From: Natrarchaeobaculum aegyptiacum
Lineage (GTDB): Archaea > Halobacteriota > Halobacteria > Halobacteriales > Natrialbaceae
Assembly: GCF_002156705.1 (NCBI RefSeq)
Contig: NZ_CP019893.1
Coordinates: 1,116,001-1,180,000, forward strand
Direction of reading: 5' to 3'
DNA: 64,000 nt
Shown: positions 51,639-62,620 of the stretch, in pieces
How positions within the stretch are numbered: position 1 is the first letter of the stretch
Layout: each line of letters begins with the position of its first letter
Made by a program: the position numbers and the translations under genes
Notes under the pieces: model-generated
What the model saw: only the letters and a program-made list of their open reading frames with translations
Databases searched by the model: none
What the model was told of the DNA's origin: nothing

Positions 51639-52055
51639 TTAGAGCGTGTCAAACGATTTTATTACATCACTCGTTGAGTACGTATCGACTAGGTCCTGTG
51701 TATCGAAGTCAGAATCGTCGCTCCAAATAGCAGCATCGTTGGCGATCGCACACGCGAGGTACAACACATCGTCAGGGTCGGTGTCTCCGATTGCTTCGTC
51801 TGCCCTCTCGATAGCCGGGTAGAAGTCGTCGGCAGGAACGACCTCAATGTACTGGAACAGGAGGTCGATAAATTGTGCCACTCGGTCCGGTTCCATTCCG
51901 GATTTCTCTACGATCAGGCCTTCGTAGTTTTCGACTTCGTCGTGGACAAATGCGGGCGTCAGGAGATCTGGTTCGAGTGTCACAATGAGCTCCCGCGTCT
52001 TCGAATCAGCGATGAGTGCAGAAATAACGACGTTGGCGTCGATGACCAGCTTCAT
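51639..52055 (-). CDS. PIN-domain ribonuclease toxin (VapC-like)
   Basis: A 138-residue PIN-domain protein. Acidic active-site residues occur in VIDANVVISALIAD (Asp5), in the helix around DEVENYEGL, and in DTDPDDVLYLACAIANDAAI with SDDSDFDTQ. It is preceded by an RHH-type antitoxin gene ten bases upstream, the classic VapBC layout. VapC toxins cleave tRNA or rRNA. It lies close to the integrase, as toxin-antitoxin pairs often do in mobile islands. Confidence 0.83.
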   Translation of the reverse strand: MKLVIDANVVISALIADSKTRELIVTLEPDLLTPAFVHDEVENYEGLIVEKSGMEPDRVAQFIDLLFQYIEVVPADDFYPAIERADEAIGDTDPDDVLYLACAIANDAAIWSDDSDFDTQDLVDTYSTSDVIKSFDTL

Positions 52056-52064
52056 TCGTCGAGT

Positions 52065-52295
52065 CTACGCCGATTCTTCGTCGACGCGCTTGCGTCCACG
52101 TTCGTTGATCTTGTCGGCGATTTCCTGCACGTCGCGCCCGGAGAGTTCGCTCTCGCTGGTGAGTTCGTCCATCATCTCAAGCGCCTCTATCTTCTCCTGG
52201 ATGGCCTGTCGCGTGACCTCGCTCCAGTTGATCTCCGGGTGCTGTTCCATCCGCTCTTTGAGGGCGTCGTCCACGTTAACCGTGATACTGGGCAT
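52065..52295 (-). CDS. Ribbon-helix-helix antitoxin (VapB-like)
   Basis: A 76-residue protein, MPSITVNVDDALKERMEQHP, with an N-terminal strand and two helices (EINWSEVTRQAIQEKIEAL) of ribbon-helix-helix type, followed by a C-terminal toxin-binding helix (GRDVQEIADKINERGRKR). It precedes the PIN-domain gene and probably neutralises it and represses the shared promoter. Start is the ATG at 52293-52295. Confidence 0.8.
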   Translation of the reverse strand: MPSITVNVDDALKERMEQHPEINWSEVTRQAIQEKIEALEMMDELTSESELSGRDVQEIADKINERGRKRVDEESA

Positions 52296-52644
52296 ACAGG
52301 AATCTATGTGGACACAGAATACTGTGTCTTTCGGTGCATCCCGTGTTAAGCGACATTGAGTTCCTCGCACTAGATAGGACGGGAAAGGTCGAGTCGATAG
52401 ACCTACAGAGTGTCAAATTCCACTGGCTCAGAACCCTGCACATTCTGGATGATCCCCTCACCCGGAAATAAGTTAAGTGGCAAATTTAGACGGTTCAGTA
52501 CCCAAGGGCCGATTTTACGGGTGCCATGGGCCCTGACGGGGAACGTCCAGAATCTTCCGGGCTCTCAGCCAGCTGTTAGTGCACGCGAGAAACGGTCAAA
52601 CAGGCGTTTAGAACTCGCTGTCTTCGGCCTTCAGTGAGAGAACC
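52296..52644. other. Intergenic region between antitoxin and integrase
   Basis: I see no gene. It holds the divergent promoters of the VapBC-like pair and the integrase, with AT-rich AAATAAGTTAAGTGGCAAAT (52468-52487). An attachment site would be expected near here, but no tRNA gene or clear direct repeat could be recognised. Confidence 0.45.
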
Positions 52645-53658
52645 ATGACAGACCACCTCGAACCCCTCGCACCAGCTGAGGCAATGCAGATGTACCTCGA
52701 CGAACGGAGTCACGAACTCGCGGACGCGACGATCCAATCCCATCGGTATCGTCTCAAGCAGTTCGTCCAGTGGTGTGAACAGGACGGCATCGACAATCTC
52801 AACGACTTTAGCGGGCGAGACATCCATCGCTTTCGCGTCAAACGCAGGAACGAAGACGAGCTCGCAACTGCCAGCATGAAGGGCCAGCTGGCAACCCTGA
52901 GAATGTTCCTCCGCTTCTGTGCGACGATCGATGCAGTCGAACCAGGACTCGACGAGAAAATCATCCTTCCGACGACGACCGAAGACGATGCTCGATCCGA
53001 GTTACTGAATCCGGATCGCGCTCAGCAGGTACTCAAATTCCTCGACCAATATCGCTACGCGCGCCTGGAGCACGCGTTGGTAGAAGTTCTCTGGCACACG
53101 GGGCTTCGTATCGGCGCAGCGATTGGGCTCGACATTGAGGACTACAACAACGACGAGCAGTACCTCACGCTCGCCCACCGACCCGAGGAAGGAACCTCGC
53201 TCAAGAATGGACGGAAGAGTGAACGGCTCGTCGCACTGAGTGACTCTGTCTGTGAGGTGTTAGATGACTGGCTGTCAGTCAATCATCCGGGAGTCGTTGA
53301 TCAGCATGACCGTGAGCCGCTGTTTGCGACGAAAATCGATCGATTGAGTCGAACCCGTGGCCGGACGATCGTCTACCAGTACACGCGCCCGTGCGTCTAC
53401 ACTGATAGCTGCCCTCATGAGCGGGATCTGGATAATTGTGACGCGCTACCCACCGAACGCTCGCATGCGTGTCCCTCCTCGTTGAGTCCCCACCCAGTTC
53501 GACGTGGTGCGATCACGCATTTTCTCAAATCTAACGTTCCCGAGAACGTCGTGAGCGATCGGATGGATTGCAGCGAGGCAGTCCTTGACCGCCACTACGA
53601 TCAACGGTCGGAACGTGAAAAACTTCGGCAGCGGAGACGCTACCTCCCCGGCAATTAA
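52645..53658 (+). CDS. Tyrosine-type recombinase/integrase
   Basis: A 337-residue XerC/D-like recombinase. The N-terminal SAM-like DNA-binding domain covers about 1-100 (DATIQSHRYRLKQFVQWCEQ). The catalytic domain has the first Arg in WHTGLRIGAAIGLD, the HxxR box in HPVRRGAITHFL and the nucleophile Tyr in LDRHYDQRSEREK near 318. All look intact. Pieces of a close relative are at 11042-11160 and 59014-59173. It faces the three-gene operon tail to tail and probably mobilised the island. Confidence 0.9.
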   Translation: MTDHLEPLAPAEAMQMYLDERSHELADATIQSHRYRLKQFVQWCEQDGIDNLNDFSGRDIHRFRVKRRNEDELATASMKGQLATLRMFLRFCATIDAVEPGLDEKIILPTTTEDDARSELLNPDRAQQVLKFLDQYRYARLEHALVEVLWHTGLRIGAAIGLDIEDYNNDEQYLTLAHRPEEGTSLKNGRKSERLVALSDSVCEVLDDWLSVNHPGVVDQHDREPLFATKIDRLSRTRGRTIVYQYTRPCVYTDSCPHERDLDNCDALPTERSHACPSSLSPHPVRRGAITHFLKSNVPENVVSDRMDCSEAVLDRHYDQRSEREKLRQRRRYLPGN

Positions 53659-53755: not shown

Positions 53756-54445
53756 TTAGAATCCAGCGACATTAGGGACTCGGCGGAAATGTACGGACGT
53801 TGGATGGCGAGCTGTGCTCTTCTTGTGTGGGTTTTCGTCTGTAGTGACTGCAACGGCGGGAATAACGATTCGGGATGCATATAATGGAAATGTCTCAGAG
53901 AACCTATCCCCGACATCAACGATGAAGGGAATCTGAGTTTTAAATTGGTGCCCATACATAGAAAAAGAGAGTTGCCACCAGACAATTCGCGTCTCGTGGA
54001 GAAGTGTAATCCGAGCAGATGTATGAAACGAGGATTCATTTTCTTGAACCCAGTTTCGAATCGCATCGTGAAATTCAGATTCAGTTAGACCGCTAGTAGA
54101 AGAATTTGTCAAGAGTCGGTGTCCAACCGCAGCGATATCATAGGTTGTCGACAATTCGAGTTCATTTGTGGTGGTTTCTAGAGAAACCAGATCGAGATGA
54201 TGCTGATAAGGCTCATCTTTGGAACTGCGTCGGGCAAATTTTCTGAAATCGTCCACATTTGACAGACATCCTTCAAGTTCGATGAGAATCGGAAACATAC
54301 GAGGTGCGGAGATTTCTGTTGGCTCAATCCAAATAACCGAATCAGGTACCCCCCTTTCATTTCCGAATCCACGTGGGATCGTTTTGAGTGTGACATCTGA
54401 ACTAGCCAAGTGGTCCCGGAGATGTACCGCCTCTTCACGACTCAT
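53756..54445 (-). CDS. PD-(D/E)xK-like protein of a three-gene putative defence operon
   Basis: A 229-residue soluble protein, third gene of the operon; its ATG overlaps the stop of the middle gene by four bases. A stretch beginning GVPDSVIWIEP (Pro34-Asp35) and ending FPILIELEGC (Glu56-x-Glu58) has the spacing of a PD-(D/E)xK nuclease core, but Glu stands where the catalytic Lys is normal. Later strands (RITLLHETRIVWWQLSF) could complete an alpha/beta fold. The DNA is AT-rich. I do not recognise a family; nuclease function is inference. Confidence 0.65.
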   Translation of the reverse strand: MSREEAVHLRDHLASSDVTLKTIPRGFGNERGVPDSVIWIEPTEISAPRMFPILIELEGCLSNVDDFRKFARRSSKDEPYQHHLDLVSLETTTNELELSTTYDIAAVGHRLLTNSSTSGLTESEFHDAIRNWVQENESSFHTSARITLLHETRIVWWQLSFSMYGHQFKTQIPFIVDVGDRFSETFPLYASRIVIPAVAVTTDENPHKKSTARHPTSVHFRRVPNVAGF

Positions 54446-55827
54446 TGCTGCAGTTGAATAACGATGGGGACTGTCTCCCGTAATTCTCTGAGCGCATCGA
54501 AATCAACAGATGATAACAGAATTGTATCTTCAGTGTGTAAGCGTTCGAATAACTCGCTAACTTCTTTGCCAGTAAACTCATCAGATAGATCATCAAATGC
54601 TGTATCGACCCACTCACGATATTCAGTAATTGTCTCAAATGCTTTCTCAGGGTGCTCCCGAATCGCCGTCCGCTTGAACCCAGAGAGGGATTCACTCGGC
54701 ACTGGTGATTCAAGATCTTGTGTATTGTTCCCTTCTGCAATCTGCGAACACATCGTATCAAGCATTTCTAACTCCGCTACAATCTTATCGACAAAGTTCT
54801 CGTATTCCTTTTCGACCGTGCTTGCGGCTCCTAATAACTCACCTACGGAATTATATTTTCCAGAGTGGAATTCTTCCAACTCAGTGCTCAAGTTGACACT
54901 CGCTGATCTCAGGGAGTCTGGAACTGAAGCCATACTCGTGACACTGTCGATCTCAAGGAGCGTATCCTCAACGTTCGCCGAGAACGTTCCCAGCTTAGTT
55001 GCGACTGTATTCAGTTCTGATTGGAACTCTGAGAGTGCAACTCCATCCAATCGGGCTTCGACATCGTTCTCCACCACAGCAACAACACCGATCGAAATCT
55101 CAATATTGTTAACCGCTTCATCGATCGCCTCTATCTCGGTTTTAATAGATTCAATCGCCACAGTACTGTCGGGATCACTGTAGTAGGATTCTGTTTCCTG
55201 GAGAGTACACAGTCCGTCGGGCACCCACTCCCCAGCTGAAGCAAATATTTCTTCGAGGTTTTCAAGAGCCTCGCGCCGATTTTTTATATTTCCAATGAGG
55301 GGCGTCAATTCTCTAGTCGGACTAATTAAGTAGCGTGAGCTATCCGTGTCAACCCTTGAAGATATGAGATTAACAGTGAAGTTAGTCTCATCCTGTAACA
55401 TCGTCACCGCATGTTGGTACCCTTGTGCATCCTCCTGAAGGTCGCTCGGGGTTCGGCTTCGAACACTTTCACGTAGCTCATCAATACGGCTTCTGGGGAG
55501 TTCTATCTCAAGTATGTCTACCGTCTCTTCAAGACCCCGGAGGGCGGATTGTTCGACAGGTTTTGAAAATGAATCTTTGAACTGTTCTCCAAATTCAATA
55601 AGGTCTTCAGGAGTGTCAAGAATGCGTAACTGACCCTTGAGTTCGCTCGCTTGTTTTTTAACTGCTGCTCTATCTTGTGCATTCATCGCTTCCAGATCTG
55701 CACTCGCTGTCTCTGTCCACCCTGAGAGAGCCGAGATCTCTGTCTCTGTAGATTCTAAGTCTTCGATCGCGGTTTCAAGCTCAGCTGTAAGGTCATCAAG
55801 TGAAGTCGTAGTCTTTTGATCCGTCAT
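54442..55827 (-). CDS. Helical/coiled-coil protein of a three-gene putative defence operon
   Basis: A 461-residue, very acidic and almost wholly helical protein, second in the operon and overlapping both neighbours by four bases. It starts MTDQKTTTSLDDLTAELETA, and heptad-like patterns occur at about 8-75 (ELETAIEDLESTETEISALS) and again around 215-300. No catalytic motif or membrane segment is seen. It probably bridges or oligomerises with the NTPase, in the way non-SMC partners or scaffolds do in multi-subunit defence complexes. No family recognised. Confidence 0.7.
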   Translation of the reverse strand: MTDQKTTTSLDDLTAELETAIEDLESTETEISALSGWTETASADLEAMNAQDRAAVKKQASELKGQLRILDTPEDLIEFGEQFKDSFSKPVEQSALRGLEETVDILEIELPRSRIDELRESVRSRTPSDLQEDAQGYQHAVTMLQDETNFTVNLISSRVDTDSSRYLISPTRELTPLIGNIKNRREALENLEEIFASAGEWVPDGLCTLQETESYYSDPDSTVAIESIKTEIEAIDEAVNNIEISIGVVAVVENDVEARLDGVALSEFQSELNTVATKLGTFSANVEDTLLEIDSVTSMASVPDSLRSASVNLSTELEEFHSGKYNSVGELLGAASTVEKEYENFVDKIVAELEMLDTMCSQIAEGNNTQDLESPVPSESLSGFKRTAIREHPEKAFETITEYREWVDTAFDDLSDEFTGKEVSELFERLHTEDTILLSSVDFDALRELRETVPIVIQLQQ

Positions 55828-58800
55828 GCTGTGGCCTCCTGATCCTCGACAGCGTGTTGTAGAAGTTCACGAAGATCGACTTTGAGATCCTCTGCCGCGC
55901 TATCGACAGCCTGTTGCTGGCTGTGCAACAGTTCGACAAGTTCTCGAATGTCTTCAACTTCTTCAACGTATTTTTGAGAGCTTCTATCAATCGTACTCAG
56001 TTGATCAATGTGGCTTGGAAGGGGAATATTGCTCATACTATCGAAATTGAAAATGTCGTTTCCAACACCTTCAAGCTGGGCTAGGAGCTTATTTTCTGAA
56101 CCAAAATTTTGAACAATGACATCAGATCCTTCAACTGCTTGATAAAGATCTGTGTAGGTTGCTTTAAGGAGTTTGACATTACCGAGGGTGACCGAATTGA
56201 GTTCCATCTCATACTTATCTACTACATCAGAAATTTGATCAACGAACTCTCGCAACATAAGCAGGTATACCCACGCATATGGACTGATTCCACGATTGAG
56301 TTCACACTGTTCACGAAGATCATCAACGCCTTTCGAGAGGTTTCCGAGTGTCTGTTTGTATGCTAGATATTTGTTTGAGTCTAGATTCGGCCAGTTGCCA
56401 ACATCTGCACAGGATGGTTGAGTTAGAACATCATCGTGCGCATCAATTGTGTCCAAGTGAGCATCGAAATCCGATTTGTATACTTCCAGTTTGTTGCCAA
56501 GATCTCGGAGCTCGCCTGCCAAGTTGAACACTTCCCCACCATCTGTGGCAATCTTGCTCATCAATAGCGCTCGGAGGAAGGCTAGTGCATTTTCTGGCAC
56601 GTTGATATCAAGGACGGTGATGTCGCCACTCTCAGCAGTTGCATCAAGATCATTGAGCGCGTTCGTCGTTGTTTCTATATTGAATTCCATCGCCAATCTA
56701 AACAGTGCATTTTGGGTATTCCGAACCCCGTCAACCAACCGACCCTCATCAAAATAGTGATTTCGCTCAGTAGTCAACGTTCCAGAGAATCCGGATTCAC
56801 TGTAGAGTTCGCTGAGAAATTCCGTGTACGGAAACGCCTTTCCGCCAGAGATTAAATCTTCGTCAATTGCTGCTTGGACTGTTGTGTGGAGATTTCCGTA
56901 GGGGCGACTGAACTCAGGGAGGTCTGAAAGGACGAGTAGATATGCCTGTGTCCGTGTTAGTTCACGGATTGTGCCAGACGTCCAGAAGGGACTGTCATCT
57001 TGGAACCGTGCATTTTCCCAAAGCAAGGTTGACTCATTGGGTAGCGAGTAACGGTTTATATATTCTTGTGTGGCCTTTGTTGCTTCTTCAGTGGCTACTC
57101 TATATAATTGATCAAAAAGGGTATCTATCGTATTTCGAGCGTCACGAGTATCAACTGCTTCCAGTAGCTGTTGGCGGGACGCTTCGTTGACTGCCTGATC
57201 TGGATTAAGCCCCTGTTCTTCAAGTGCGCCCCGAAGATTGATCACGAAATCCCAAAGCATGCTCGATTCGTTCGAGGCGATGGTGAGCAAGTCGAGTTGT
57301 CGAAATGTATTATACTCCTCTGAGATGTTTTCTGTAAGTTCTTCCGGCGCAATCACCACATTTGGAGACGTAATATCGTACTCGTTCTTCACCACTCGGA
57401 GCTGGTGATTCAAGACATCTTCAGTCGGGCAAAAGTAGACGCTCATGTCGGAATGAGCAGCCTTCGAATCAAATTCTAATGCAAACTCCATCGACTCCCG
57501 GAGCGATTCTGTGCTTTCAGTTGTGACAAGGTCTGGATTAAGTGCAATCGGTTGAAAGGCATTATCAAGTATGGAAAGCTTCGGAGAAAGACAGTCGCCT
57601 TCGATCGGTGTTTTTGAATCTTCGAGAGTATAGAACTCGGTGTTGAACTCATCAGGAGATACGTCGAGTGCTTCGATAGCAGTCCTGCGAGTAGGACCTT
57701 TCGGCTCAAACGTAAGAATCTGGTCCTCAATCAGCGAAAAAAGACCTTCAACTTCCTCATTCTCGAACATTAGACCTTTATACGGGAAGGTTGGCTGGGC
57801 TGGTCGAGTGACAGCATCGAATACACGCTCAACGTTTCGTCTGATAATCCGCTTCACAGTTCTGTCTTGATCTATATCTGCAAAATCAGCTGTCTCGAAG
57901 ATGACATTAGTCACAAGATTACTCATCGTTTCCGCAGAGTAGCCTTGAGTGTCTTGCATGAGCCACTCCTCGTAGCCACGTTGGAAGGCAAGCGTCTGAC
58001 AGGCTGTTTCCCAATGTTCAGACTTGAGATTGGCCCAGATATCGTTAATTATGGCTGTTCCCTGAGACTCAGTATCAGCCATCGACTGTACCCACTCAGC
58101 AAGATTCTCGTTGATATCGCTCGGGAGTTCATCGATGAGTTTGATAATGAGACCTGTACGTCCCCTTCCCATCCACCAGATAATGTTTGCTAAATGAGTC
58201 GGCGACTCATCGTGCTCTTCAAGTCGATTAGTTATTTCTGTGATGTCAAGGGGTGGGACACGGAGTTCTTTTAGGCGCCGCCAGTCTGCTTCGCCGAGGA
58301 ACTCGTATGCCGATAGCATTCCGAAGCTCCATACTTTGAGCGTGTTTGGTACTTCGTCGTTGATTACACGGAGTGGATTATTATCGTCTGTTTCAATGGC
58401 TGCGAGGAAGTCTTCGTAGTGTTGCTCAACTTCGTCGACAAGAATAGTGTATTTTGTAATATCGGTTGGATCGTCGATGGTAACCATCGTTTCCAGCCAA
58501 TCACGTTTTTGTTCGGGCTCTGTGTTCGGGAACCACGTAACATCCTCCGGATCACCTCTAACGTAGTATTCGATTTCTTCCTGAATTCGATCTTCAAGCC
58601 AGACTTCAATTTTTGACTCGGCTGAATTCTCAAATTCGGATAAAAGTTTTCCCGGGTCACCAATATAAACGGCGCCGATATTGCGCTCCCATGCCTCACG
58701 GAAGATTTGGTACATCAACTGGGTTTTTCCAGATCCGTACGCACCAACGACAGCTAATGGATCGGGTGAATCTCCTCCTGTTAACTTTTCAAAAGATTTT

Positions 58801-58880
58801 CGATAATCCACAATCACATCTTCATGAGCAGTTGTGATATCCACCCATTCTCGATGAAGATCTGCGTTCCGTGAAACCAT
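55824..58880 (-). CDS. Large P-loop NTPase of a three-gene putative defence operon
   Basis: A 1018-residue protein. Near the N-terminus lies the Walker A motif AVVGAYGSGKT (about residues 43-53 from the ATG at 58880), and about 95 residues later comes the Walker B YTILVDEVEQHYED. The remaining 800 residues are mainly helical with no recognised domain. The layout resembles large AAA/STAND-like defence ATPases such as BREX BrxC or BrxD, but I see no real similarity to either. A TTG 24 bases further upstream is an alternative start. GGAGG directly precedes the ATG, and a TTTAAT box lies 24-29 bases upstream. Confidence 0.75.
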   Translation of the reverse strand: MVSRNADLHREWVDITTAHEDVIVDYRKSFEKLTGGDSPDPLAVVGAYGSGKTQLMYQIFREAWERNIGAVYIGDPGKLLSEFENSAESKIEVWLEDRIQEEIEYYVRGDPEDVTWFPNTEPEQKRDWLETMVTIDDPTDITKYTILVDEVEQHYEDFLAAIETDDNNPLRVINDEVPNTLKVWSFGMLSAYEFLGEADWRRLKELRVPPLDITEITNRLEEHDESPTHLANIIWWMGRGRTGLIIKLIDELPSDINENLAEWVQSMADTESQGTAIINDIWANLKSEHWETACQTLAFQRGYEEWLMQDTQGYSAETMSNLVTNVIFETADFADIDQDRTVKRIIRRNVERVFDAVTRPAQPTFPYKGLMFENEEVEGLFSLIEDQILTFEPKGPTRRTAIEALDVSPDEFNTEFYTLEDSKTPIEGDCLSPKLSILDNAFQPIALNPDLVTTESTESLRESMEFALEFDSKAAHSDMSVYFCPTEDVLNHQLRVVKNEYDITSPNVVIAPEELTENISEEYNTFRQLDLLTIASNESSMLWDFVINLRGALEEQGLNPDQAVNEASRQQLLEAVDTRDARNTIDTLFDQLYRVATEEATKATQEYINRYSLPNESTLLWENARFQDDSPFWTSGTIRELTRTQAYLLVLSDLPEFSRPYGNLHTTVQAAIDEDLISGGKAFPYTEFLSELYSESGFSGTLTTERNHYFDEGRLVDGVRNTQNALFRLAMEFNIETTTNALNDLDATAESGDITVLDINVPENALAFLRALLMSKIATDGGEVFNLAGELRDLGNKLEVYKSDFDAHLDTIDAHDDVLTQPSCADVGNWPNLDSNKYLAYKQTLGNLSKGVDDLREQCELNRGISPYAWVYLLMLREFVDQISDVVDKYEMELNSVTLGNVKLLKATYTDLYQAVEGSDVIVQNFGSENKLLAQLEGVGNDIFNFDSMSNIPLPSHIDQLSTIDRSSQKYVEEVEDIRELVELLHSQQQAVDSAAEDLKVDLRELLQHAVEDQEATA

Positions 58881-59013
58881 ACCTCCATCAATACCTGTTA
58901 TCAAATTAAACCTACTGGCTCAACATATATTTGGTACTTCCCGAACGTCGCTTTGTGAGCTGTGCTGAGTCATAGACATCCGGAGTGAACGCTGGTACAG
59001 TAATTAAGTGAGG

Positions 59014-59173
59014 GAACCAGCACTTGACGAGAAGATCATCCTCCCAACCACAACCGAAGACGATGCTCGAACCGAATTATTGAACCCGGAGCGCGCTTGG
59101 CAAATTCTAACATTCTTCGATCAATATCGCTACGCGCGCTTAGAACAATAGTTGCCCTCATGAGCGGGATCTG
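59014..59173 (+). pseudogene. Integrase remnant with internal deletion
   Basis: Bases 59014-59146 align to 52939-53074 of the intact integrase (both encode the stretch with KIILPTTTEDDAR and LEQYRYARL-like sequence). Bases 59153-59173 then match 53410-53430 exactly (TGCCCTCATGAGCGGGATCTG), so about 335 bases between have been lost. Both copies point the same way and enclose the three-gene operon. It cannot encode a working enzyme. Confidence 0.8.
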
Positions 59174-59225: not shown

Positions 59226-60695
59226 ATGGAAGATATTGAGGAGTATCAATTAGAGATAACTGAGGATATCCGGGAGACGGTCGGATCAAAGCCAGTTCAA
59301 CCAATCTTATTCGTCGGTTCAGGCCTGTCAAAAAGATATTTCTCAGGACCAAGTTGGGACGGCTTATTGTCTAATCTCGCGGCCAGCTGTCCAAAGCTTG
59401 AATACAATTATGGGTATTATCGGCAAAGCCGCGATCCACCTGAGATGGGTAGTCTACTTGCTGACCGCTTTTCACAGTGGGCCTGGGATCAAAATGAGCG
59501 AAAATTTTCCGATATGAAACCTGACTACGAACAGAACCCAGACATATTTCTGAAAAAAGAGATTTCAGACCGCTTTAAAGAGCTTACACCAGAAACTGTT
59601 GATGAACTCACGGAAGAAAAGCTTGATGAGGATTTAACTATAGAAGATGCAGCTAACGAAATTGATCTATTGAGGGATATACAACCGCATGCTGTAATAA
59701 CAACTAATTATGATACGTTTTTAGAGACGATATTTAACAATGATGGCAAAGAAGACGAAAAATATGATGTTATCGTTGGTGAGAAAATACTGAGAGCACC
59801 CCACAAGAGTGTTGGAGAAATACTGAAAATTCATGGATCCGTGACTCAACCAGAGTCATTAATTTTGACATCTGAAGATTATGATGAATTTGTCAACAGA
59901 AAAAGATACCTTAGTTCAAAAATGCTCACCTATTTTGCTGAACACCCACTTCTAATTGTTGGGTACAGCGCCACTGATCCAAATGTTCGTTCTATCTTGT
60001 CTTGGGTAAATCAGCTGTTGCCCGGAGATGAGATGGTTGCTGAGGACATCTATTTCCTTAACTTTTGCCGTAATATTGAGGAGTTAGACGAATATTCGCT
60101 GAGAAAACGAATTCCACTCGGTGAAGAACGATATATTTCTGTAAAACAGATCATGGCGAAAGACTTCGGATGGGTCTTCGAAGCGTTTGCGAGCGGCGAA
60201 GGATTCGAAGTTGACATCCGTTACCTCCGGAAACTATTGGCAAATACCTACGAGGTGGTGCGGTCTAAATCCTCTCGCGAACGCGTTGTTGATCACCAGC
60301 GCTTGGAGGAGGTTGCAGAAGACCAAGGAGAACTGGCAACGGTACTTGGTATCTCAGCAGAAGAACGAGATCGAGGGTTCCTATTTGACCATGATCTTTC
60401 ACCAAGCGATCTCTACGATGAAACCGGACTCGGATCAGCACACAAATTCAAAGAGAAAGTGCTTGTTCCGATTTATCAAGATAGCGGAGTTAACATCACC
60501 GGATTCAAGAATTCCTATCATATCGCCTTCTGGAATGAAGGTGAGAGTCCTGACTACCGACGATATTCTAGTGCAGCAGTTGGTCTATGTAACCGGGTTA
60601 TGGAAGGCGAAGAATATAATTTGAACATCCCAGAAAGCCGAATAAATGAGGATCATATGGAACGTGGTTTAGACCTGAGTCCATTTATTGATTGA
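59226..60695 (+). CDS. SIR2-family NADase-like protein, probable defence effector
   Basis: A 489-residue protein. The N-terminal about 290 residues are a SIR2 domain: ILFVGSGLSKRYF (residues 28-40) binds NAD, ITTNYDTFLE (158-167) and KIHGSV with the catalytic His203 follow, and VGYSATDPNV (245-254) closes the site. Such SIR2 domains in defence proteins (for example ThsA, DSR and SIR2-containing Argonaute systems) cleave NAD to stop phage growth. The C-terminal 200 residues are unassigned and may sense the trigger. It is divergent from the three-gene operon. The GC content is low. Confidence 0.85.
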   Translation: MEDIEEYQLEITEDIRETVGSKPVQPILFVGSGLSKRYFSGPSWDGLLSNLAASCPKLEYNYGYYRQSRDPPEMGSLLADRFSQWAWDQNERKFSDMKPDYEQNPDIFLKKEISDRFKELTPETVDELTEEKLDEDLTIEDAANEIDLLRDIQPHAVITTNYDTFLETIFNNDGKEDEKYDVIVGEKILRAPHKSVGEILKIHGSVTQPESLILTSEDYDEFVNRKRYLSSKMLTYFAEHPLLIVGYSATDPNVRSILSWVNQLLPGDEMVAEDIYFLNFCRNIEELDEYSLRKRIPLGEERYISVKQIMAKDFGWVFEAFASGEGFEVDIRYLRKLLANTYEVVRSKSSRERVVDHQRLEEVAEDQGELATVLGISAEERDRGFLFDHDLSPSDLYDETGLGSAHKFKEKVLVPIYQDSGVNITGFKNSYHIAFWNEGESPDYRRYSSAAVGLCNRVMEGEEYNLNIPESRINEDHMERGLDLSPFID

Positions 60696-60991: not shown

Positions 60992-62620
60992 CATCCGTTC
61001 TAGCTTAGCGACTAACTGAGACGGTGATCACGCCGAAAATGCGTCGAGTCTCACCGCAATCATACCGAGATAGCTGCTGCTCAAGCAAACCAGCCGGTTC
61101 TTGGTCATGTCTCCCGTCGAAGGCGGCGCACTCGCAGTCGTGAGTGCGCCGCCGTTCCAGAGCCGTCGCTGACCAGCCTGGGCGATCCAGCCCGTCTCGT
61201 CAGGCGAGTTCGTTACCAGAACTCGCCTGACTCCACCTGTTCACGTAACCTCGGACGGTGTGGATTTGGATCTCGTGACGACCACAGCAACAACGAATCG
61301 AGATCCGGTAGCTCGTACCCCAGATCCAACATCAGGTACAACTGGATCAGATGAGCGTGGCGTTCGACAGCGTGTGAACATCGTCGTCGAGGAAGCCGCG
61401 TCGACGACGCCGCGGCGTCGTCGGCGCAGTCTCGCTGCTTTGCGTCCAGTTTCTGGAGTTCGTCGACGATAACCCGGCTCATCAGCAGCGAGAGTGCTGC
61501 CATGATGATCAGCGCCTCGATGATGTAGGCGTCGGTCGTGTTGATCTCGTCCAGACCGAACCGTGATTTGAGTTCTTTGAACAGCAGTTCGATCTCCCAG
61601 CGCGCCCGATAGAGCTGTGCGATATCGGGCGCGCGGTAGTCGTCTCTCTCCAGATTCGTCAGGTACAGATGATACTCGCCGCTGTCATCGTTGCGAACGC
61701 CGACTAATCGGAAGGTTCGGGTCGCGCTGGCGCCCGACCCTCGTTTGCGGTCGAACGAGAGCGTGATCTGTACGTCAATTTCCTGTCGCTTCAGGTCGTC
61801 GAGGACGGCCTGCAGCGACTGGCCTTCTAGCGGAATGCTGTTCCCTCGCCACGTCCGGAGTTCTTCGACGATTTCGAAGTCTGCGTTTTCTTTGACGCGA
61901 GAGACGAACCAGCCATCATTGGCGTCAATGCGGTCGAACAGCCAGAAATCGTAGTAGCCGAGATCGAACAGAATGAGGGCGCCAGCTACCCACTCGCCGG
62001 TGGGTAGCTGGCTCCGTTCATGGGTGCTCGCGTCGGTCGTCCGAAATCGCGTTGGAAGTCCCGTTGAGAGCGATTCGGTGAGATGGAGTTTCGCCCCGGC
62101 TCGGTCATCATCGAGTGCGTAGACATCTTTGGCGTCTTGGTAGAGCGAGATGATCGTCGCGTCGACGATGAGGACGTCTCGAAATCGTTCGAGACGTCCG
62201 CTCAGCTCGGTTTGGCCGGTGTCGAGATTCTCGATGGCCTCATCGAGAATCTCTCGAAGGAGTGCGACGAACCCTGGTTTGAACCAGCCGTGAAACGTCG
62301 CATACGAGAGTTCGTCGCAGTCAGCCATCTCGACGTAGCGTTCGAGAAACGCCTGAATGGATCGATCAGAACCAGCGGCAAAGCCGAGGGAGAGCGTGTA
62401 AAACAACGCGACGACGTCGAGTTTCCGCTCTCGCTGGATAAGATTCGTTGCGCGAGCACGCTCGCGCAACTCATCGGATGGAAACGCTCTTTGAATTCGG
62501 TTCACAACTACTGAATCCGGTGGTTTGTACACACTTCCCACCGGATTCTCACATTCCTAGTTACTGACGATTCTAGCTTGGCGTCTCTGGATACCCCGAC
62601 CTGTTAAACTAGAACGGATG
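60992..62620 (-). mobile_element. Complete IS4-family (ISH8-type) insertion sequence
   Basis: A 1629-base element bounded by inverted repeats CATCCGTTCTAG (60992-61003) and CTAGAACGGATG (62609-62620), perfect over 12 bases. It is flanked by a 10-base target duplication and carries one intact transposase on the minus strand. The perfect ends, duplication and open frame suggest a recent insertion. Confidence 0.92.
61213..62541 (-). CDS. IS4-family (ISH8-type) transposase
   Basis: A 442-residue DDE transposase. The first Asp is in LIVDATIISLYQ near 127, the second in LILFDLGYYDFWLFDRI near 194, and the YREK-like signature is YRARWEIELLFKELKSRFGL near 322. The C-terminal block with SSRLPRRRC-like sequence (STRLPRRRCSHAVERHA) is characteristic of ISH8-group haloarchaeal transposases. 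Start is the GTG at 62539-62541. No frameshift or premature stop, so it should be active. Confidence 0.92.
   Translation of the reverse strand: MGSVYKPPDSVVVNRIQRAFPSDELRERARATNLIQRERKLDVVALFYTLSLGFAAGSDRSIQAFLERYVEMADCDELSYATFHGWFKPGFVALLREILDEAIENLDTGQTELSGRLERFRDVLIVDATIISLYQDAKDVYALDDDRAGAKLHLTESLSTGLPTRFRTTDASTHERSQLPTGEWVAGALILFDLGYYDFWLFDRIDANDGWFVSRVKENADFEIVEELRTWRGNSIPLEGQSLQAVLDDLKRQEIDVQITLSFDRKRGSGASATRTFRLVGVRNDDSGEYHLYLTNLERDDYRAPDIAQLYRARWEIELLFKELKSRFGLDEINTTDAYIIEALIIMAALSLLMSRVIVDELQKLDAKQRDCADDAAASSTRLPRRRCSHAVERHAHLIQLYLMLDLGYELPDLDSLLLWSSRDPNPHRPRLREQVESGEFW

Follow-up and report, generated by a model that had tools for sequence, protein, structure and literature searches.

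Does a cluster of three overlapping genes in the haloarchaeon Natrarchaeobaculum aegyptiacum, singled out by an earlier note as a candidate for an undescribed anti-phage or anti-plasmid system, take part in defence, and if so, in what capacity? The genes, here called A, B, and C in order of transcription, lie on the minus strand at positions 53756–58880 of a 64,000-nucleotide stretch of the 3.93-Mb haloarchaeal chromosome (NZ_CP019893.1, positions 1,116,001 to 1,180,000; hereafter the window, whose numbering is used throughout). The reading that we favour, with moderate confidence, is that A-B-C is a mobile haloarchaeal defence module with an ATPase-adaptor-effector layout, working with neighbouring modification or helicase systems against foreign DNA. 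Its basis is the conservation of the genes, their coupling, their motifs, their neighbourhoods, and a patchy spread across families. The cassette probably belongs, as a part not described so far, to the immune repertoire of archaea: no account of it was found in the open-access literature, and a description elsewhere is possible.

A conserved and translationally coupled cassette

Gene A (55824–58880, minus) is predicted to encode a 1018-residue AAA+ ATPase whose C-terminal half is long and helical; its frame starts with an ATG at 58880, with an upstream TTG at 58904 as an alternative open start, and orthologues occur in eight further genomes or contigs. It is followed by gene B (54442–55827, minus), for a 461-residue soluble, probably helical partner with an orthologue at each full-length A locus and in a split sister family, and by gene C (53756–54445, minus), whose reading frame, motif, and structure model point to a 229-residue PD-(D/E)xK-like protein. 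As had been read from this single copy, both junctions are four-base-pair ATGA overlaps on the minus strand (A/B at 55824–55827, B/C at 54442–54445). The open reading frames (ORFs) are intact, and the whole cassette measures 5.1 kb. Compared with the copy in a Haloquadratum metagenome-assembled genome (L002), to which A, B, and C are 64, 47, and 62% identical, mismatches at the first, second, and third codon positions number 258/196/639 in A, 193/125/310 in B, and 75/42/155 in C, and nonsynonymous differences (pN of 0.22, 0.35, and 0.26, respectively) stand against synonymous ones (pS) of about 0.8. The third-position excess and a pN far below pS thus mark all three as functional coding genes under purifying selection.

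Taking one genome per species, we surveyed 16 loci, nine with the fused form A-B-C and seven with a split form in which A is divided into A' and A''. Full-length A followed by B and C is present in G000 (the host genome), G002, G051, G056, G083, G219, G276, G388, and L002, and the A/B and B/C frames abut or overlap at every junction in all nine. The translational coupling proposed for this copy is thereby upheld, since gene order and coupling are conserved over nine loci from several haloarchaeal families. Among 394 class-wide genomes, full-length A was found in seven. The full-length copies other than the Haloquadratum one share 25–35% identity with A, even where they come from the same family. 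In a genome of the same genus (G036), the adjacent core gene is present at 84% identity and A-B-C is absent, as expected of an island; a homologue of the integrase beside the cassette lies elsewhere in that genome.

The split form occurs at seven archaeal loci (G122, G136, G229, G232, G343, G396, and G629), of which G122 is in the host's family, G136 is a plasmid of H. walsbyi C23, and G629, a 4.9-kb contig, falls outside the haloarchaeal order. Profile comparison (hhalign) aligned A' with residues ~1–452 of A (probability 99.9%, E 5e-37), A'' with residues ~520–1018 (96.9%, E 1e-10), and B' with B (94%, E 1e-7). C' has only about 140 residues and shares with C the invariant positions R25, G32, P34, D35, P52, L54, E56, E58, and D66. 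In a maximum-likelihood tree, the fused and split forms separate with support 100/100; loci with an intact C (type I) form one clade (96/96), and those with a degenerate C (type II) fall into two groups that may or may not belong together. Additional matches of the A4 profile in G029, G033, G143, G279, and G030 were judged to be coiled-coil noise because they span only the last 130–230 positions. A search of 50,697 phage records and a pattern scan of IMG/VR turned up no relative, and 72,556 plasmids yielded two, both of them split copies. The cassette is real and old, and it is mobile.

The predicted ATPase and its helical partner

None of the three proteins has a significant match in Pfam, NCBIfam, PADLOC, or the sequences of the PDB, in agreement with the earlier note, which could place the operon in no named system. 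The Walker A motif of A (residues 46–53, GAYGSGKT; 58722–58745, minus) follows the pattern G46-x-Y-x-x-G51-K52-T-Q54 in the nine orthologues (GAYGSGKTQ in this copy), with G46, G51, and K52 invariant in all nine full-length sequences. Equally invariant are D149, E150, E152, and Q153 in and next to the Walker B motif (residues 144–152, with ILVDE; 58425–58451, minus). A third conserved element, the RGR motif (residues 239–241, in the context WW..RGR.G; 58158–58166, minus), has W235, W236, R239, G240, and R241 invariant in A and appears as RGRPG in A'; judged by sequence, it is possibly an AAA+ sensor-2 region.

An AlphaFold2 model of A, built from the nine-sequence alignment, has a mean predicted local distance difference test score (pLDDT) of 78.7 and a predicted template modelling score (pTM) of 0.53. 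In it, an N-terminal alpha/beta P-loop domain with its core strands and helices in order precedes a long, helical C-terminal half, so that the Walker A and Walker B motifs sit on the alpha-beta core that AAA+ membership calls for. Foldseek comparison of this model with the PDB returned mostly AAA+ proteins (Sec18, p97, SSO1545, RuvB, Orc, and DnaA), all weakly, with none at E<=0.001 and none covering the whole chain well. Pfam P-loop matches, to STAND, NB-ARC, and archaeal ATPase_2 families, reached only E 0.004–0.12, under the cut-offs, and no curated AAA+ or STAND family matched significantly. A similarity to SMC proteins (5xg2, E 0.0024, residues 780–867) was read as coiled-coil composition only. 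The Walker motifs seen by the earlier note are confirmed, with their key residues invariant, and its statement that A has no other nameable domain can be refined: on sequence and model together, A is best described as an AAA+ ATPase whose C-terminus is long and helical and which has a weak similarity, suggestive only, to PglY/BrxC of BREX (bacteriophage exclusion). B gave low-complexity helical matches only and has no hydrophobic segment; it is soluble and probably helical.

A nuclease-like protein in a variable slot

The earlier note had likened a PD...ELE pattern in C to that of a nuclease. P34-D35 (54341–54346, minus) and E56-L57-E58 (54272–54280, minus), with E56 and E58 as its fixed residues, are invariant in five fused-form and four split-form proteins, such that G-x-P-D...E-x-E is kept in 9 of 13 C or C' proteins (at five of nine fused loci and at four split ones), with Glu replacing Lys. 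C thus carries the conserved residues of the PD-(D/E)xK superfamily with variant catalytic positions. The E-x-E variant of this active site is known from BamHI. The model of C (pLDDT 80.8, pTM 0.82) consists of a helix (3–15), three strands (18–24, 36–42, and 51–57), a short helix (68–72), and a further strand (84–88), with D35 directly before the second strand and E56/E58 at or near the end of the third. Modelled elements in this order would fit a PD-(D/E)xK core built around an E-x-E active site.

What occupies the slot varies among loci. The type I loci and four split loci retain P-D...E-x-E. At G232 and G229 there is no C', and each has next door a gene for a PLD nuclease of the DrmC kind, the two being 34% identical to each other. 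At G219, C is kept and the neighbouring PbeA has no PLD part. At G056, G388, G083, and G002, C is without an intact motif, and A is preceded by a gene for a 215–255-residue protein with two or three hydrophobic segments and a soluble C-terminal part. Such non-homologous replacement is what would be expected if C were the output domain of the machine.

Defence neighbourhoods of the cassette

Neighbouring genes were annotated by profile for selected genes, with a PADLOC copy of 2023, and some distances derive from mechanical ORF calls. On this footing, 13 of the 16 loci adjoin restriction, modification, or helicase genes (AddAB, Pbe, DISARM, N4/N6 or C5 methylases, Mrr, or type I restriction-modification), and several of these partners run in the cassette's own transcriptional direction (G083, G219, G232, and G276). 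The earlier note had named recurrent linkage in defence islands with conserved gene order as the support to look for, and the survey of homologues found it.

At G219, about 300 bp past A-B-C and on the same strand, lies a PbeA that matches only profile positions 246–668 of ~670, which is the helicase part. It is followed by a 59-residue ORF of PbeB size, PbeC (E 1e-213), and a 156-residue ORF of PbeD/DndE size. The locus also has a UvrD-like helicase, a ResIII helicase, and two Dam-type-methylase-like ORFs, of which Pfam confirmed one. The PLD-less PbeA (L034, 4409–6079), adjoining an intact PbeC and ORFs of PbeB and PbeD size and with no DndC noticed nearby, is a possible natural variant of Pbe in its own right.

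AddB- and AddA-like helicase-nucleases, 51–54% identical between the loci, adjoin A-B-C at G276 and G051, codirectionally in one and divergently in the other; at G276 the five genes run AddB-AddA-A-B-C, and G051 also has a Dam-type methylase. AddAB was rejected as an obligate partner: nine other AddAB loci are without A-B-C, and profile searches of their neighbours came back empty. As a separate observation, 11 of 394 haloarchaeal genomes have AddAB-like pairs (L106–L114), some of them next to Mre11-like genes and mostly without A-B-C. At L002, a C-terminal stretch of an XPD/DinG-type helicase precedes A by about 175 bp.

At all four type II loci (G002, G083, G056, and G388), the cassette has N4/N6 methylases no more than about 5 kb away. 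These genomes hold two to four N4/N6 methylase loci each, some 12 in 15.8 Mb, so that random placement would put one within 10 kb with a chance of ~0.014–0.026 per genome and ~1e-7 for all four, a figure that shows island residence and not by itself cooperation. Beside the N4/N6 methylase pair near type II cassettes, we also noted ~300-residue proteins (L010, 12046–12921; L011, 16101–17015) that are 67% identical, match no significant Pfam family, and are possibly the endonuclease of that pair.

Among the split loci, G232 reads drmA-drmB-drmC-A'-A''-B' and also has a C5 methylase of DrmMII type and a glycosylase resembling HhH-GPD; G229 has DrmMII-like C5 methylases, the PLD gene, and a weak DrmE_C match; G396 has a C5 methylase and HhH-GPD; and G343 has an Mrr_cat endonuclease. 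C5 methylases are present in three of the six split-module genomes tested, each time with one beside the module, and the other three genomes have none. The glycosylases that accompany the module with the C5 methylases in G396, G232, and G229 (L038, L039, and L067) are 61–65% identical, the L038 and L039 methylases are 85% identical, and the task of the glycosylase may be to repair methylcytosine after deamination, in the manner of Vsr.

The island in N. aegyptiacum

The low GC content reported for the cassette is confirmed, at 0.45–0.47 around A-B-C against 0.62–0.72 over the greater part of the window's first 48 kb. A XerC/D-like tyrosine integrase (52645–53658, plus; NCBIfam XerD E=7.6e-20, below the curated cut-off) adjoins C. 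On the other side, upstream of A, blastn against the intact integrase gene revealed the remnant of a second, related integrase (59014–59173, plus), in which 59014–59147 matches 52939–53072 with 82% identity over 134 bp, 59148–59173 matches 53405–53430 at 25 of 26 bp, and 332 bp of the integrase gene are missing. Both flanks named by the earlier note are thus real, with the correction that the remnant represents a second copy of this kind of integrase that has decayed. The SIR2 gene and hsdM that it placed on this side are likewise there: outside the cassette, a SIR2_2-domain gene (59226–60695, plus; PADLOC candidate PDC-S25, E=1.7e-72) is followed by an insertion sequence (IS) and then by hsdM-hsdS-hsdR, which starts about 4 kb from the start of A. 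The hsdMSR genes are the nearest candidate partner in this genome; the IS and the SIR2 gene intervene, and independence is possible.

Several side observations concern the island itself. Two DDE_Tnp_1 IS copies in the same orientation and with identical 442-residue transposases (window 61213–62541, and L013 17660–18988, G000 ~1185660–1186988) bracket hsdM-hsdS-hsdR, resembling a composite transposon that carries a type I restriction-modification system. Beyond the second copy lies a tyrosine-integrase-like fragment (L013, 19004–19489), recognized by eye and with no Pfam match; the island has seemingly been struck by several integration events. A PIN_2-domain protein with a 101-residue upstream partner (window 51639–52370, minus) forms a VapBC-like toxin-antitoxin pair in the same island.

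A proposed mechanism and its rivals

In the mechanism that we propose, A, powered by ATP, would join the helical adaptor B to make a motor or switch that engages DNA, and C would be the effector or output subunit; for the copy in this genome, the probable type is a PD-(D/E)xK nuclease that has an ExE active site. Self DNA would be marked by the methylase of the partner system, from which specificity would come; unmarked foreign DNA, or DNA that the partner helicase has opened or perhaps translocated, would trigger the ATPase, which would then release or direct the nuclease. The effector slot would be exchangeable, taking the PD-ExE protein, a DrmC-type PLD nuclease, or a degenerate C with a membrane protein. 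Inferred here are the joining of A, B, and C in one complex, the cutting of DNA by C, unmodified or invading DNA as the trigger, and the choice of hsdMSR as candidate partner in this genome. The proposal of an undescribed anti-phage or anti-plasmid system thus stands as regards the missing family name and the recurrent defence neighbourhoods, and gives way on one point: A-B-C is probably not self-contained, because most loci pair it with another modification or helicase system.

Several observations weigh against this reading. The nuclease cannot be the only effector, since the motif of C is lost at four loci; the nuclease-like pattern noted earlier holds as a conserved feature, shared with the sister family, and its catalytic role is not universal. 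A Foldseek search with the model of C gave no PD-(D/E)xK or other significant match (phosphatase matches at a template modelling score of ~0.2 are meaningless), and Pfam matched no C from any locus; as Foldseek does not recognise the fold, we label C "PD-(D/E)xK-like by motif". The A-B-C operon of this genome contains no methylase or helicase, and no defence partner was recognised at G122, G136, or G629 within the stretch examined. Finally, adjacency does not prove cooperation, because defence genes cluster.

One rival is a self-sufficient system of the abortive-infection type. In it, A would be a STAND/AAA+ sensor that directly recognises some component of the virus and sets free C, or elsewhere the membrane protein, so that the infected cell dies or stops growing, the modification genes being mere island neighbours. 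The weak STAND, NB-ARC, and archaeal ATPase_2 matches of A point this way, the swap between a nuclease-like C and a protein with two or three hydrophobic segments is typical of such sensors, G122, G136, and G629 show no modification partner, and the copy here shares no operon with one. We nevertheless regard it as rather unlikely, given restriction-modification, modification, or helicase partners at most loci, codirectional at several, and a non-random association with particular methylase types. Less probable still is that A belongs to a distantly diverged BREX-like core as a PglY/BrxC homologue, PglZ having been lost. With haloarchaeal BrxC and PglY profiles, A aligned by hhalign at E=2.7e-4 and a probability of 42%, colinear over columns 3–561 with Walker A in register, which is better than the controls (E=0.015 for the reversed sequence and 0.27–0.28 for AddA/AddB); the score is below any usual acceptance threshold, the PADLOC and NCBIfam BREX models (BrxC) do not match A, and neighbouring annotated genes include no PglZ, PglX, or BrxL. 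DUF499 ATPases (PF04465), tried in the same way, were rejected as near the reversed control (probability 0.2%, E 0.36). We treat the similarity to BrxC and PglY as a lead suggested by sequence, not as membership. About equally improbable, in our estimate, is a role in the maintenance or conflicts of integrative elements and plasmids, by way of replication, segregation, or competitor exclusion, with the cassette sitting beside defence genes as both ride mobile elements. The integrase and integrase remnant around the cassette, two split copies on plasmids, and the Orc, DnaA, and RuvB types among the Foldseek matches would fit it; the lack of phage relatives and the mere two plasmid ones in the databases searched, the several copies on large chromosomal contigs, and the absence of recognised partition or origin genes nearby speak against it.

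The defence module working with neighbouring systems remains our preferred reading, and it can be extended, tentatively and with more doubt than belief, to a defence core of ancient archaeal origin that has had no name so far: an AAA+ motor (A in one piece, or A' with A''), the adaptor B, and an exchangeable effector (PD-ExE, PLD, or membrane protein) that plugs into unrelated modification or helicase systems (AddAB, Pbe, DISARM, and N4/N6 or C5 methylases) as a shared "engine". If this were true, one portable cassette would underlie part of the haloarchaeal systems that are now catalogued separately (Pbe-like, DISARM-like, and solitary methylase loci), and it could help to explain incomplete-looking Pbe- and DISARM-like loci such as G219, with its PLD-less PbeA behind A-B-C. 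The effector swaps offer a natural test of how an ATPase core couples to different killing or cutting outputs, and the cassette is small enough for transfer into Haloferax or Natrinema laboratory hosts, where virus assays exist; Natrinema CJ7-F, for one, served as host to virus SNJ1 in PMC6459918.

Comparison with known systems

The Wadjet, Gabija, Septu, Druantia, Zorya, and other models in PADLOC match none of the three proteins at E<=1, with one exception: the mad8 ATPase of MADS (PDLC04140) is the sole match of A (E 0.013) and of A' (E 0.0045). A relationship to mad8 was rejected, as that profile matches about 20 proteins per genome and all 14 controls and says only "P-loop ATPase". AddAB/RecB-type helicase-nucleases, the immediate neighbours at G051 and G276, are unrelated to A-B-C in sequence. 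PglY/BrxC of BREX resembles A in size (1000–1250 residues), in an N-terminal P-loop G-S-G-K-[ST], in a long C-terminal half, and in the weak colinear profile similarity; the differences lie in PglZ, PglX, and BrxL, none of which was seen with A-B-C, and in B and C, which match no BrxA or BrxB model.

Class 2 DISARM (defence island system associated with restriction-modification; DrmA, DrmB, DrmC, DrmE, and DrmMII) is linked to the split module, which stands after drmABC and before the DrmMII-type C5 methylase at G232 and is flanked by DrmE- and DrmMII-like genes at G229. The DISARM gene set (DrmA and DrmB with DrmC or a methylase) is found only at the split locus G232, not at the N. aegyptiacum locus; A, B, and C match no Drm model, and the cassette also occurs without any drm gene. 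PbeABCD and CxC-DndE are like A-B-C in combining ATPases and nucleases in haloarchaeal defence loci, where they are paired with different modifications (PMC6459918, PMC10853773). They differ in that no Pbe or Dnd model of PADLOC matches A, B, or C, and in that PbeC is an ABC/SMC-like ATPase and A is of predicted AAA+ type. The two meet at G219, where A-B-C stands upstream of PbeA-B-C-D-like genes. PbeA normally has an N-terminal PLD/HKD nuclease (PMC6459918, PMC10853773); at G219 it is without that part, as if A-B-C supplied the nuclease.

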